Shown here: piece after piece, positions 37,809 through 43,590 of the stretch | How the letters are laid out: each line of letters opens with the position of its first letter | How positions within the stretch are numbered: position 1 is the first letter of the stretch | NCBI GenBank assembly: GCA_017993615.1 | Contig: JAGOMJ010000011.1 | Location: forward strand, 1-58,162 | Source of the DNA: Smithella sp. | GTDB taxonomy: Bacteria > Desulfobacterota > Syntrophia > Syntrophales > Smithellaceae | Direction of reading: 5' to 3' | Length of the DNA stretch: 58,162 bases | Notes under the pieces: generated by a model | Told to the model about the DNA's origin: nothing | What the model saw: the letters and a program-made list of their open reading frames with translations, nothing else | The model's database searches: none | Program-made: the position numbers and the translations under genes

Positions 37809-39041
37809 ATGAACAATTTTTTTATTTTTATTTTCGTTTTTGTTCTTTCCATCGCCGTCATCATCAGTTTTATTTATACCATGTGGCGTATGAACCGGGA
37901 CGAGCAGAAACTGATCAGCATTATCCACGGCTCCCCTATCCCCACGTTCGTCATATCCAAAAATCACAAAGTCGTTTACTGGAACAGAGCGCTGCAGGCG
38001 GCAAGCAAAATCAAGCCCAGCGACGTTCTGGGCACAGACCAGCACTGGCGCGCGTTTTACACATCGCCCCGTCCCTGTCTGGCGGATCTCATTCTGGACG
38101 GGAAAACCGCCCAGATTGCCGAACTGTATCCAGACCGCTGGAGCAGATCCAAGCTGCTGGAAGACGCCTACGAGGTGACACAGTTTTATCCTGACATGGG
38201 CGAAAAGGGGAAATGGTATCGCATAACATCGGCAGGCCTCAAAGATTCCAGAGGAAATCTGTTCGGCGTCATGGAAACACTGGAGGACATCACAGAACAG
38301 AAATTAGCGCAGGACGAACTGCTCCGGCGGACGAAACTGGAATCCCTGGGAACCTTTGCGGACGGGGTTGCCAAAGACTTTGACAGTCTGCTGACCGCGA
38401 TTTTACGGAATGTTTTCCTGGCCAAAATATCCGCCAGTGATGAAGATAAAATGCTGGAGAACGGTCTTGCCGTAGCCGAACGTGCCGGCCTTCAGGCCAA
38501 GGAACTGGCCCACCGTCTTATCACCTTCGCTCAGGGAGGATACCCGGTGCGCAAGCTGGAAAAAATAGAACCTGTGTTGCATGAGGCGGCGGAAAGTGTT
38601 TTTAAAAACTCGGCCATCACCTGCAATATTACCATCGCGGAAGATCTCTGGCCCTGCGAAATTGACGCCACACAGATCAAACAGGTTATTGAAAACGTCT
38701 TGATCAACGCCAGAGAAGCGATGCCGGATGGCGGTTCCGTGCAGATGACCACGGAAAATACCACCACCGGAACCAACATCCGGTCGCTGGGACAGGGGAA
38801 TTACATCCGAATTATTATCAAGGACAGCGGCATCGGCATTCCCCGGGAAAATCTTCCCCGGATCTTCGATCCCTACTTTACGACAAAAAAGACAAAAGAA
38901 CACGGGGGAATCGGCCTGGGGCTGGCAATCAGCGATTCCATCATTAAATACCATAACGGATTAATTACCGTTGAATCGATCGTCAATTCCGGAACAACCT
39001 TTTCCATTTATCTGCCCGCAAAAACAACAAACGGTTCTTAG
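37809..39041 (+). CDS. Membrane PAS histidine-kinase-like protein with Lys in place of the phospho-acceptor His
   Basis: The 410-residue protein has one N-terminal transmembrane segment (about 4-26), a PAS domain (about 35-165, ending EDITEQK), a dimerisation region, and a well-kept HATPase domain: N-box ENVLINAREAM (295-305), DSGIGI (339-344) and GGIGLGLA (366-373). In NtrB-type kinases the H-box reads GxAHDFNNLL; here it reads GVAKDFDSLL, so position 189 is lysine. The codon is AAA in an unbroken frame. It cannot autophosphorylate in the usual way. It may act as a phosphatase, an ATP-dependent scaffold or a heterodimer partner. It faces the sigma-54 response regulator gene convergently, 54 nt apart. 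Confidence 0.88.
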   Translation: MNNFFIFIFVFVLSIAVIISFIYTMWRMNRDEQKLISIIHGSPIPTFVISKNHKVVYWNRALQAASKIKPSDVLGTDQHWRAFYTSPRPCLADLILDGKTAQIAELYPDRWSRSKLLEDAYEVTQFYPDMGEKGKWYRITSAGLKDSRGNLFGVMETLEDITEQKLAQDELLRRTKLESLGTFADGVAKDFDSLLTAILRNVFLAKISASDEDKMLENGLAVAERAGLQAKELAHRLITFAQGGYPVRKLEKIEPVLHEAAESVFKNSAITCNITIAEDLWPCEIDATQIKQVIENVLINAREAMPDGGSVQMTTENTTTGTNIRSLGQGNYIRIIIKDSGIGIPRENLPRIFDPYFTTKKTKEHGGIGLGLAISDSIIKYHNGLITVESIVNSGTTFSIYLPAKTTNGS

Positions 39042-39095: not shown

Positions 39096-40463
39096 TTACC
39101 GGTTCATCTCATATTTGATTAATTTCGCGCGCAGCGTTTTTCTGGTAATGCCCAGCCGGCGCGCCGTTTCGCTTTTATTGCCTCTGCAATCAGCCAGCAC
39201 CGCCAGAATATTTTTTTTCTCCATGCTTTCCAGAGATAAATTTCGTATCGCTTCCCCCTGCTCCGCAATACCGGAAACCTCATGGCTTTTCTCCATGACC
39301 AGCGTCATATCGTCGGCGTCCAGATAATCCGTTCGTGACAGAACAACCGACCGTTCCACAGCGTTCATCAGTTCCCGTATGTTACCCGGCCAGTGATAGG
39401 CTAAAAGTTTTTCCATCGCCCGCGGAGTGAATGCTTTGATGGTTTTTTTATTGCGCCCGGCAAACAACTCGAGAAAATGCTGCGCCAGTATCGGAATGTC
39501 TTCTTTCCGTTCGCGCAGCGGCGGCACATTCAAGGAAACAACGTTTAAGCGATAAAACAAATCCTCGCGGAAATTTCCGTTCTGAACTTCTTCTTTCAAG
39601 TTCTTATTGGAAGCGGCAATAACCCGCACGTCGACTTTAATCACTTCCGCTCCGCCCACGCGTGTCAACTCGCGTTCCTGCAAGACACGCAGAAGTTTGA
39701 CCTGCATCGCCTTGGACATCTCGCTGACTTCATCCAGAAATAAGCTGCCGCCGTGAGCCTGAAGGAATTTCCCTTCCCTCCTGCGTTCCGCACCGGTAAA
39801 GGCTCCCTTCTCGTGCCCGAAAAGCTCCGACTCCAGAAGCGTTTCCGTCAGCGCCGAACAGTTTATTTTGATAAAAACCGTTTCCGCCCGCATGCTGTTG
39901 AAATGAATGGCGTTGGCAATCAATTCCTTACCGGTGCCCGACTCGCCGGTAATCAGCACATTGGCCTCCGTGGGCGCCACCTGGGCCACTGTTTCCAAGA
40001 GCTTGACCATCGGGTAACTCTGTCCGATGAGATTCTGCCGGTTAAATTTTTCATCCAGCCTGTTTCTTAAATATCTGTTTTCCTTTTTCAGCCGATTATG
40101 TTCCGTCGCCCGTCCGATGGCAATTCTCAGTTCGTCGAAGTTAAGCGGTTTGGTCAGATAATCATAAGCTCCCTTTTTCAGGGCACTGACCGCCGTTTCC
40201 AATGAAGCGTACGCCGTCATAATAATCACCGGGGTTTCCGGATTGATGGCTTTAATCTGTCCCAAGGCTTCTATTCCGGAAACATTCAACATACAAATGT
40301 CCATGATGATCAGATCAAAAGGCATTCGCCGGACCGCTTCGACCGCGACGTGACCGTCGTCCGCTTCATTGACTTGATACCCCCAGTCGTTCAAATGTTT
40401 TTTGAGTATCATCCGGTGAACGGAATCATCGTCAACAATCAGCACAGCTTTTTCAACAACCAT
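39096..40463 (-). CDS. NtrC-family sigma-54-dependent response regulator
   Basis: The 455-residue protein has an N-terminal receiver domain with acidic D11-D13, phospho-acceptor D55, T83 and K105. The AAA+ domain has Walker A GESGTGKE (173-180), the sigma-54 contact loop GAFTGA (220-225) and Walker B SLFLDEVSEM. A C-terminal Fis-type helix-turn-helix (NKSETARRLGITRKTLRAKL) completes it, so the domain set is complete. The gene runs away from a region with paired TGGATAA palindromes and a sigma-54 promoter reading the other way, so it probably drives the small RNA and may regulate itself. AGGGG precedes the ATG. Confidence 0.95.
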   Translation of the reverse strand: MVVEKAVLIVDDDSVHRMILKKHLNDWGYQVNEADDGHVAVEAVRRMPFDLIIMDICMLNVSGIEALGQIKAINPETPVIIMTAYASLETAVSALKKGAYDYLTKPLNFDELRIAIGRATEHNRLKKENRYLRNRLDEKFNRQNLIGQSYPMVKLLETVAQVAPTEANVLITGESGTGKELIANAIHFNSMRAETVFIKINCSALTETLLESELFGHEKGAFTGAERRREGKFLQAHGGSLFLDEVSEMSKAMQVKLLRVLQERELTRVGGAEVIKVDVRVIAASNKNLKEEVQNGNFREDLFYRLNVVSLNVPPLRERKEDIPILAQHFLELFAGRNKKTIKAFTPRAMEKLLAYHWPGNIRELMNAVERSVVLSRTDYLDADDMTLVMEKSHEVSGIAEQGEAIRNLSLESMEKKNILAVLADCRGNKSETARRLGITRKTLRAKLIKYEMNR

Positions 40464-40544: not shown

Positions 40545-40609
40545 CATCTGGATAATTATTATCCAGATGAATGCTAAATTGGATACGTAAATTGGATCAT
40601 TATTATCCA
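40545..40609. promoter_or_regulatory. Tandem palindromic activator sites (putative sigma-54 enhancer)
   Basis: A perfect palindrome at 40545-40569 has 11-bp arms CATCTGGATAA and TTATCCAGATG around TTA. A second copy at 40593-40609, TGGATCA-TTA-TTATCCA, has one mismatch. An extra half site TGGATAC is at 40580-40586. The two palindrome centres are 44 bp apart, about four helical turns, and lie about 160 and 120 bp before the predicted sigma-54 start, the usual place for NtrC-type enhancers. Confidence 0.7.
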
Positions 40610-40693: not shown

Positions 40694-40709
40694 TGGCACA
40701 TCAATTGCA
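40694..40709 (+). promoter_or_regulatory. Sigma-54 (-24/-12) promoter
   Basis: TGGCACATCAATTGCA matches the consensus TGGCAC-R-N4-TTGCW exactly, with GG and GC separated by 10 nt. Predicted start is near 40720. It reads away from the response regulator gene. Confidence 0.75.
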
Positions 40710-40719
40710 GATAAAAATT

Positions 40720-40804
40720 ATACGCAAACCATGAAACCCTTTAAGTCTTCTCCTAGGTTTCAACTCTCAGCAAAAGCGGGAGGCTATTAAGCCTCCCGCT
40801 TTTT
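40720..40804 (+). ncRNA. Predicted sigma-54-dependent small regulatory RNA (about 85 nt)
   Basis: Transcription from the -24/-12 promoter would meet a strong terminator after about 85 nt with no credible gene between. The RNA can form a 5' hairpin, TGAAACC (40732-40738) with GGTTTCA (40756-40762). Its 17-nt loop contains TCTTCTCCT (40746-40754), complementary to Shine-Dalgarno sequences such as AGGAGAAGA. The second hairpin is the terminator. This is the layout of trans-acting small RNAs that block ribosome binding. An ATG-initiated 19-codon frame (40731-40790) has no ribosome binding site and ends in the terminator loop; I consider it incidental. Targets are unknown. Confidence 0.65.
40776..40804 (+). 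terminator. Strong rho-independent terminator (small RNA; also serves mutS on the minus strand)
   Basis: GCGGGAGGC (40776-40784), loop TATTAA, GCCTCCCGC (40791-40799), TTTTT. AAAA on the left side gives a T run on the minus strand as well, so it probably also ends the mutS transcript. Confidence 0.9.
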
Positions 40805-40932
40805 CTTGAATAAACCTTTTCAGAGTATTTGTTAATAAACAAGCTCTTAAAAAAATCAAAGAGTGCCAGGAGCGCCAAGGAATATAAAGATCGATGGAGG
40901 ATTGAAAGCTTTCCTCATGAATCGTAAATGAT

Positions 40933-43590
40933 TTAATCAGAAATTTTATTCTTCAGTTCGTTCAATTTATTGAGCGCTTCGAGAGGCGACAGGGAGGAAA
41001 TATCGATATTCTTCAGTGCCTCGATGAGGTTCTGTCCTTTCTTTTCGAGAGCAATGGCGGTTTCCCGTCTTGAAAAAAGACTCAATTGCGGATTGGCGTT
41101 TTTGCCTTCGCGGGCTCCCCGGACTATGCGGGGCATGCCGATCTCGTCGAATTCCCCTTTTTCCAGATTCCGCAATATTTCCTTTGCGCGCATAATGACG
41201 TCGGCCGGCACGCCCGCAATGCGCGCCACTTCGATCCCGTAACTGCGGCTGGTCCCGCCTTCCATAATTTTGCGCAGAAAAATTATTTTTTCTCCCCATT
41301 CCTTCACGGCGATATTATAATTTTTCGCCCCGGGTTTTGTTACCACCAGATCGGTCAGTTGATGATAATGCGTGGCAAAGAGAGCGCGGACACCGCGTCC
41401 CTGGAAATCATGAATGTATTCGGCAACCGCCCAGGCAATGCTCAATCCGTCGAAGGTGGAGGTTCCGCGACCGACTTCATCGATGATGACCAGCGACCGG
41501 GGTGTAGCGTTTTTCAGGATTTCCGCCGTTTCCGTCATTTCCACCATGAACGTGCTCTGTCCCTTGATCAGGCTGTCGGAGGCGCCGATACGCGTAAATA
41601 TTTTATCAACAATTCCGATTTTTGCTTTGGCCGCCGGGACGAAACTTCCCATCTGGGCAAGCAGAACAATCAAGGCCACCTGCCTGATATACGTGGATTT
41701 ACCCGCCATATTCGGCCCGGTGATGACGAGCAGTTTATTCTGGCGCAAATCCATTAAACAGTCGTTCGGCACAAACCCTTCGTTTTTCAAAGCCGACTCC
41801 ACAACGGGGTGGCGTCCGTCCTGAATGTCGATGGTCTCCTCATCATCGATTTCCGGGCAGACGTAATGATATTTTTCGGCCACGTCCGCCAGCGCAGCCA
41901 GGGCGTCAAGATCGGCAATCAGATTTGCATTGCCTTGAATCTCCGCGATATACCGGTCAAGTCCGTCACGCAGATTGATGAAAAGTTCCTGCTCCTTCTG
42001 CTTGATTCTTTCCTCCGCGTTGAGAACCGTCTGTTCGAATTCTTTCAATGCCTGATTGATATACCGTTCCGCGTTGACCAGGGTCTGTTTGCGGATATAA
42101 GAGTCGGGAACCAGAGCTGCGTTGGCTTTGGTGACTTCAATGTAATAACCGAACACATTGTTAAAGCCCACTTTCAGGGAATTGATGCCTGTTTTCTTGC
42201 GTTCTTCCGCCTCCAGAGCAGCAATCCATTGCTTGCCGTCGCGGCTGATCAATCGCAACTTATCAAGTTCTTCATCATACCCTGCAGCGATAAATCCGCC
42301 GTCCTGAATTTTCTGCGGCGGACTGTCGACAATCGCCCGTGAAATCACATCCACAACATCGGTCATCTCCGTGATGTGCGACCGGATGGCGCAAATGGCC
42401 GGCGCCGTGCAATCGCTGAGCAGGGACTTGATCTCCGGAACGGCAAGAAGCGAATTTTTCAGGGCGACCAGATCGCGGGCATTGGCCGCTTTGAGCGACA
42501 CTCTTCCGGCCAGCCTCTCCAGATCATATATACGCGACAATGTTTTTCGCAGATTCGCCCGCCGAAGAGGATCATCTTTCAGCTCCGCCACTGCGGCCAG
42601 CCGGGTTTTAATTTTTTCTGCATCCACCAGCGGATAGCTCATCCACCAGCGCAAACGGCGTGTCCCCATCGGCGTTTGCGTTTCACTGAAAAGAGAAAAA
42701 AGCGACCCGGCCGCCGTATTGTTCTGGATCGACGTGAAGATTTCCAGATTGCGGCGGGCGGTATCATCCAACAGAAGAAACTTTTCCGCGGAGTACCATC
42801 TGATCGCGCTGATGTGCTGCGGATTGATCTTTTGCGTCTCGTTGACGTAGCTCAATATGGCACCGGACGCCTTCAATGCCGCCGGATGTTCGCTGATGCC
42901 GCACGCATCCAGAACGTCCGTTGAAAACGTCCGCTGTAGAACATCCCCGGCCTGGCCGGTCAGAAAATAGTTTTCGTCCAGATCGTTGATGCGCAATTGA
43001 GGCATCTGTGCTTCGATGGTGTCGAGTAAAATTCTGTCGGGGAAATTTCGCGGCAGGAGCAATTCCTTAAAATCCAGGCCGGAAATTACCGTGAAGAAAT
43101 AATCGCGGTCCGTGAATTCACCGATCTGGAATTCGCCGGTTGAAATATCCAGAAAAGCCAGACCCAGGGTGTTTTTTTCGGCGCAGAGGCAGGCCAGATA
43201 ATTATTTTCACCGGGAGCCAGATTTTCTTCATCCACGACCAGTCCGGGAGTAATGATCCGGATAACCTCCCGTTTGACAATCCCTTTGGCCTTTTTGGGA
43301 TCCTCGACCTGCTCGCATATCGCCACTTTGAATCCCTTTTCCACAAGCTTGGTGATGTAGGCGGACGCAGCATGATACGGGAAACCGCAAAGCGGCACGC
43401 TGTCCTCTTTGCCCTTATTGCGCGACGTGAGCGTGATCTCCAGAACGGGCGCGGCCGTCACCGCGTCCTCGAAGAACATCTCGTAAAAATCGCCCATCCG
43501 GTAGAGCAGAATGCAATCAGGATGCTGTTGCTTGATTTTGACATACTGTTTCATCGCCGGAGTCAAATCGAGCGTCGCGCCTACCGCCAT
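40933..43590 (-). CDS. mutS: DNA mismatch repair protein MutS
   Basis: The 885-residue protein has all MutS domains. The mismatch-binding domain includes the GDFYEMF motif, the connector, lever and clamp regions follow, and the ATPase domain has Walker [11 protein letters not shown] (about residue 625), the [12 protein letters not shown] Walker B and the ATHYHQL motif. The C-terminal tail ([14 protein letters not shown]) fits the dimer/tetramer region. Its first codons overlap the upstream small membrane protein gene by 10 nt. No mutL is present in the window. Confidence 0.96.

Follow-up and report, generated by a model that had tools for sequence, protein, structure and literature searches.

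Small RNAs such as GlmY/GlmZ and Qrr are transcribed from sigma-54 promoters that have activator sites upstream. ZraSR-ZraP, an enterobacterial system for zinc and envelope stress with an NtrC-type regulator, has been described in Salmonella and E. coli (PMC4987338). The CpxQ sRNA is cut from the 3'UTR of the cpxP mRNA and ends at its terminator (PMC9438474, PMC4817254). The Alpha-r14 or cuckoo anti-Shine-Dalgarno (anti-SD) sRNAs have three hairpins whose unpaired regions carry CCUCCUCCC, and NfeR1 has a sigma-70 promoter that is repressed by NtrC (PMC10746234).

We compared with these systems a locus within a 58,162-nucleotide stretch of a Smithella sp. metagenome-assembled genome (MAG), hereafter the window. 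As in ZraSR-ZraP, the window has an NtrC-type regulator next to a divergent sigma-54 promoter with palindromic activator sites, and relatives carry a kinase-regulator operon together with a small periplasmic Spy/CpxP/ZraP-like protein. Unlike ZraSR-ZraP, the window has no ZraP-like ORF after the promoter (another copy lies on contig C5), the regulator operon is without the cognate kinase that is present in relatives, and a search of the window for a sigma-54 promoter facing the regulator found none; toward the kinase there are weak candidates only, in 12 relatives. The likeness to CpxQ is seen in the relatives, in which a terminator-ended RNA element lies within the 3'UTR of an mRNA of the Spy/CpxP/ZraP class. 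The differences are that there is no Rfam match, that sigma-54 and an NtrC-type regulator stand in place of CpxR, that no Hfq was found, that the coding part is absent in the window and that a released RNA is hypothetical here. The window shares an unpaired C/U-rich anti-SD motif with the Alpha-r14 and cuckoo RNAs (NfeR1), but it has one loop, with UCUUCUCCU instead of CCUCCUCCC, a sigma-54 promoter and no Rfam match. Like GlmY/GlmZ and Qrr, it combines a predicted small RNA with a sigma-54 promoter and upstream activator sites; unlike them, it has no covariance-model match and a putative origin in a protein-gene locus. We consider that the locus is most probably a ZraP-type sigma-54 transcription unit that lost its ORF (probability of about 0.8), a reading that is based on synteny and promoter-region homology and drawn from a single MAG of 105 contigs.

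The sigma-54 promoter (TGGCAC-N5-TTGCA; 40694–40709, plus strand) matches the -24/-12 consensus exactly. By itself this motif is weak, as chance alone would give 0.91 matches with at most one mismatch in the window and a second exact copy occurs elsewhere in the 2.52-Mb genome, within a repeat-protein ORF. The motif alone is thus not decisive; the palindromes upstream of the promoter are, since four matches (two sites, both strands) were found in the window against 0.01 expected. The first predicted activator-binding palindrome (TGGATAATTATTATCCA, 40549–40565) is exact over 17 bp and the second (TGGATCATTATTATCCA, 40593–40609) is a near copy of it with one mismatch, neither being assigned to a strand. 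The exact palindrome is found in the genome only at 40549, and one-mismatch forms are found at 40593, upstream of a kinase on contig C49 and in two further places. The spacing of the two sites is 44 bp in the window and 32–33 bp in several relatives with two sites; the ZraP-like gene is preceded in 22 of 28 relatives by the 17-bp palindrome, either identical or differing in one end letter. Both sites are located upstream of the gene from which the promoter is divergent (39096–40463, minus strand), an intact ORF for a ZraR/NtrC-type response regulator with REC, AAA+ and Fis HTH domains (Pfam) and a GAFTGA motif. The first-pass annotation had described an exact -24/-12 element facing away from a sigma-54 activator gene with palindromic sites upstream, and all of this agrees with our analysis. 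The gene for sigma-54, rpoN, was also found in the genome.

An ORF-less transcript of ~85 nt (40720–40806, plus strand) is predicted from the promoter and the terminator. The terminator (40772–40804, plus strand) has a 9-bp stem (40776–40784/40791–40799) followed by T5; one terminator scan missed it because A4/T4 lengthen the stem into the T run. No credible ORF lies between promoter and terminator, and a short peptide was rejected as a candidate, since the only in-frame ATG opens 19 codons (MKPFKSSPRFQLSAKAGGY) without a Shine-Dalgarno sequence. The 89-nt RNA has a predicted folding energy of -32.9 kcal/mol (z = -6.3), to which the terminator contributes most. The predicted 5' hairpin (40732–40762, plus strand) exposes the C/U-rich loop UCUUCUCCU (40746–40754), largely unpaired save for two weakly paired bases and complementary to ribosome binding sites of the AGGAGAAG type. 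The terminator, the lack of a credible gene and the exposed loop had all been proposed earlier and were recovered here. Rfam models, including those of GlmY/GlmZ and Qrr, gave no match to the predicted RNA at gathering scores, the sub-threshold matches (E up to 5) being mostly over the terminator, and a DNA similarity search with the 161-bp region in 149 relatives gave no convincing homologue.

The comparison with relatives carries the argument. A sigma-54 promoter of this type precedes a ZraP/Spy-like ORF and is divergent from a kinase-regulator operon in 25 of the 28 relatives in which the locus was read through. The ZraP-like proteins of the relatives (161–178 aa) belong to Pfam Metal_resist/LTXXQ, the Spy/CpxP/ZraP class, and their ORFs begin 37–54 nt from the promoter, or 138–264 nt in some. 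Regulator homologues, with up to 77% identity, are present in nearly every searched genome of the order, and in the examined loci each is located 3' of its own kinase. The gene order in the nearest syntenic relative, G015, is mutS, terminator, ZraP-like ORF, sigma-54 promoter, palindromes, kinase, regulator, kinase, IDH and FBP; the window keeps this order but has neither the ZraP-like ORF nor the partner kinase. From mutS (40933–43590, minus strand), the syntenic anchor on the terminator side, to the regulator there are 2.6 kb in G015, which hold the ZraP-like ORF and the kinase, against 470 bp in the window with neither gene. The DNA from palindrome to promoter in the window is collinear over ~170 bp with the region of G015 that holds the ZraP-like promoter (score 57, with 200 shuffles reaching at most 32), and the tree places the window regulator with those of G015, G011 and g2. 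Since the promoter of the relatives drives a ZraP-like gene and the window keeps the gene order, the locus is better described as an ORF-less ZraP-type unit than as an independent sRNA family.

On the other side of the regulator lies a convergent gene for a PAS-HATPase histidine kinase (37809–39041, plus strand; Pfam), a distinct gene that is kept in relatives. The ancestral operon partner is a different kinase, only ~28% similar to its product. This kinase has no HisKA match, is conserved in the genus, lies beside IDH and directly adjoins mutS in G003, G010 and G013.

In the ancestor, a phosphorylated ZraR-like regulator would have occupied the TGGATA-N5-TATCCA palindromes and switched on transcription by sigma-54 RNA polymerase from the -24/-12 element. 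The resulting mRNA would have encoded a periplasmic ZraP/Spy-like protein, and its 3'UTR would have held a C/U-rich, anti-SD-like stretch followed by the terminator. In the lineage of the window, deletion would have removed the ORF of the ZraP-like protein as well as the gene for the partner kinase, while the regulator, palindromes, promoter and terminator were kept. The regulator may still fire the promoter, and the resulting RNA of ~85 nt would be the leader joined to what is probably the old 3'UTR. This origin of the 3' half rests on position and a short match, since its score against the 3'UTRs of relatives is no higher than against unrelated terminators (best 28 in both). The window sequence 3' of the promoter (TGAAACCCTT-TAAGT) was matched to the post-stop sequence of G034 (TTGAAACCCTTCTAAGT; TGAAACCCTTCTAAGT) with a shuffle p of ~0.003, as the best of 28 relatives and before allowing for 28 comparisons. 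The loop UCUUCUCCU lies about where G015 and G011 have CCUUCUCU, directly 3' of the stop codon, and a GCGGGAG..CTCCCGC stem is also found 3' of the ZraP-like ORF in both. The ATGAAA of the window may derive from the old start codon or from sequence beyond the stop. The loss would be tolerable and is plausible, because a second ZraP-like gene with its own sigma-54 promoter remains on C5 and a second kinase-regulator pair on C49, its regulator being 71% identical to that of the window and grouping with G013/G003/G002 in the tree. The pair (L116, G000:C49) and the ZraP-like gene (L140, G000:C5) are on separate contigs here, and that type is linked in G013.

Given ORF loss, two sub-cases were weighed. 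The first, to which we give an even chance, is a decaying relic, in which promoter, palindromes and terminator are left over, any RNA produced would be functionless and the terminator would be retained because mutS uses it. Consistent with a relic, a scan of 60 genomes for a promoter followed by CTCCT and a T run but no ORF left the window locus as the sole fit, the stem of hairpin 1 shows no conservation in relatives, no ZraP-like gene passed the threshold in G007, G010 and G016, and no Hfq was found in the genome, whose 97.7% completeness leaves a small doubt. The terminator is possibly shared with the convergent mutS; its retention says little about the RNA, because it sits between convergent genes and may serve mutS. 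The regulator also departs from six columns otherwise invariant in the family (0–2 in most others checked), and its receiver domain is 72% similar to outgroups to which those of G015 and G011 show 82–83%. Against a relic stand the perfect -24/-12 element and palindrome, the intact regulator ORF and an AAA+ domain as conserved relative to the same outgroups as in intact systems (79.5% versus 78.9–79.3%), although other sites served by the regulator, such as the near palindrome by the C49 kinase, may account for this. The statistics are modest, with p of 0.01–0.035 for the excess of receiver departures and 0.10–0.32 for the contrast between receiver and AAA+ domains; MutS of this genome is not fast-evolving. 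The pattern fits a regulator that lost its kinase yet is still held as an activator, and it could be held by other targets. Two substitutions, L53I and R57C, lie on either side of D55, the presumed phospho-acceptor, in columns that are invariant in all other aligned regulators.

The second sub-case, which we regard as possible though doubtful, is a working stand-alone anti-SD sRNA: the ZraP-like 3'UTR would yield a base-pairing RNA as cpxP yields CpxQ (PMC9438474, PMC4817254), and with the protein part lost sigma-54 would transcribe the sRNA directly. The CpxQ precedent, the constraint on the AAA+ domain and the complementarity of the loop to ribosome binding sites are in its favour, and so is the 3'UTR of the family. 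Of the 45 family 3'UTRs, 33 have CCUCC or CUCCU, mostly predicted to be unpaired, in the first 60 nt beyond the stop; the 45 include the C5 copy of this genome, where the motif is absent. CCTCCT lies ahead of the terminator in 22 of the 28 cases with a strict terminator and in 1 of 45 controls, drawn from other terminators of the retrieved loci and of the window (p = 3e-12, kinship ignored). The motif is kept despite an unrelated terminator in G001, G002, G004 and G008, and outside it the rest of the ZraP-like 3'UTR is not conserved. CCUCCUU, which resembles the anti-SD of 16S rRNA, stands directly before the terminator of ZraP-like genes in most family genomes (for example L113, L117, L132 and L152). 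A Shine-Dalgarno sequence on the opposite strand was rejected as the cause of CCTCCTT, no consistent start codon being seen when judged by eye.

On the other side, the stand-alone form is not conserved, the lack of a detected Hfq also counts against an sRNA, and the closest relatives, G015 and G011, carry CCUUCUCU in place of CCUCCUU; moreover, the species are not independent. The family-wide 3'UTR motif lends indirect support to the anti-SD idea. The CCUCCUU element before ZraP-like terminators appears to be an undescribed regulatory feature parallel to CpxQ; our literature searches found no report of it, which does not prove absence. Searches for sRNA origin by ORF loss, or for 3'UTR anti-SD elements in this group, likewise found nothing in the literature. 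The bolder proposal, that ZraP-like 3'UTRs hold a conserved trans-acting anti-SD RNA which here, with the protein lost, became a stand-alone sRNA gene driven by sigma-54, having arisen when the coding part of the parent mRNA was deleted, we regard as speculative and more probably wrong than right. If the RNA works, the locus would be a natural experiment in which the coding output of a stress mRNA is parted from the non-coding one, and would reveal one way for 3'UTR-derived sRNAs to turn into genes of their own. Should the locus be a relic, the family-wide CCUCCUU before the terminators of ZraP-like mRNAs would still appear to be a testable regulatory feature.

The same motif could instead act in cis, the C/U-rich 3'UTR pairing with the Shine-Dalgarno sequence of its own mRNA and limiting translation of the ZraP-like protein; in the window it would be idle, its partner being gone. 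The 3' segments do pair with the 5'UTRs better than shuffles (-9.2 versus -7.1 kcal/mol), but any anti-SD pairs with any SD, and because own 5'UTR-3'UTR pairs are no better than between-species swaps (p = 0.87) cis pairing is not favoured and we judge it unlikely.

A join across missing sequence in the assembly is suggested by the absence of two genes in a single MAG of 105 contigs, but would take two separate joins flanking an intact palindrome-promoter block in correct order, and is very improbable. A contig scan returned Syntrophaceae and Deltaproteobacteria MAGs, with no closer species. The proposal of the first-pass annotation, an independent sigma-54 sRNA gene of an undescribed family with no tie to a protein gene, fits the anatomy and the Rfam result, but is scarcely credible, since ZraP-like genes are what this promoter and these palindromes drive in relatives, synteny contradicts it, the ORF-less form was found in this genome only among 60, and hairpin 1 is not conserved in relatives.

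Returning to intact ZraP-type units, six of the relatives' loci (L122, L123, L126, L127, L128 and L114) have a small ORF of ~50–62 codons (MKKLTLTLLSIAMGLLLGSYYSLIPRKMLVEYI...), with an RBS-like sequence ahead, between the sigma-54 promoter and the ZraP-like ORF, which possibly encodes a small membrane protein of the ZraP-like regulon.
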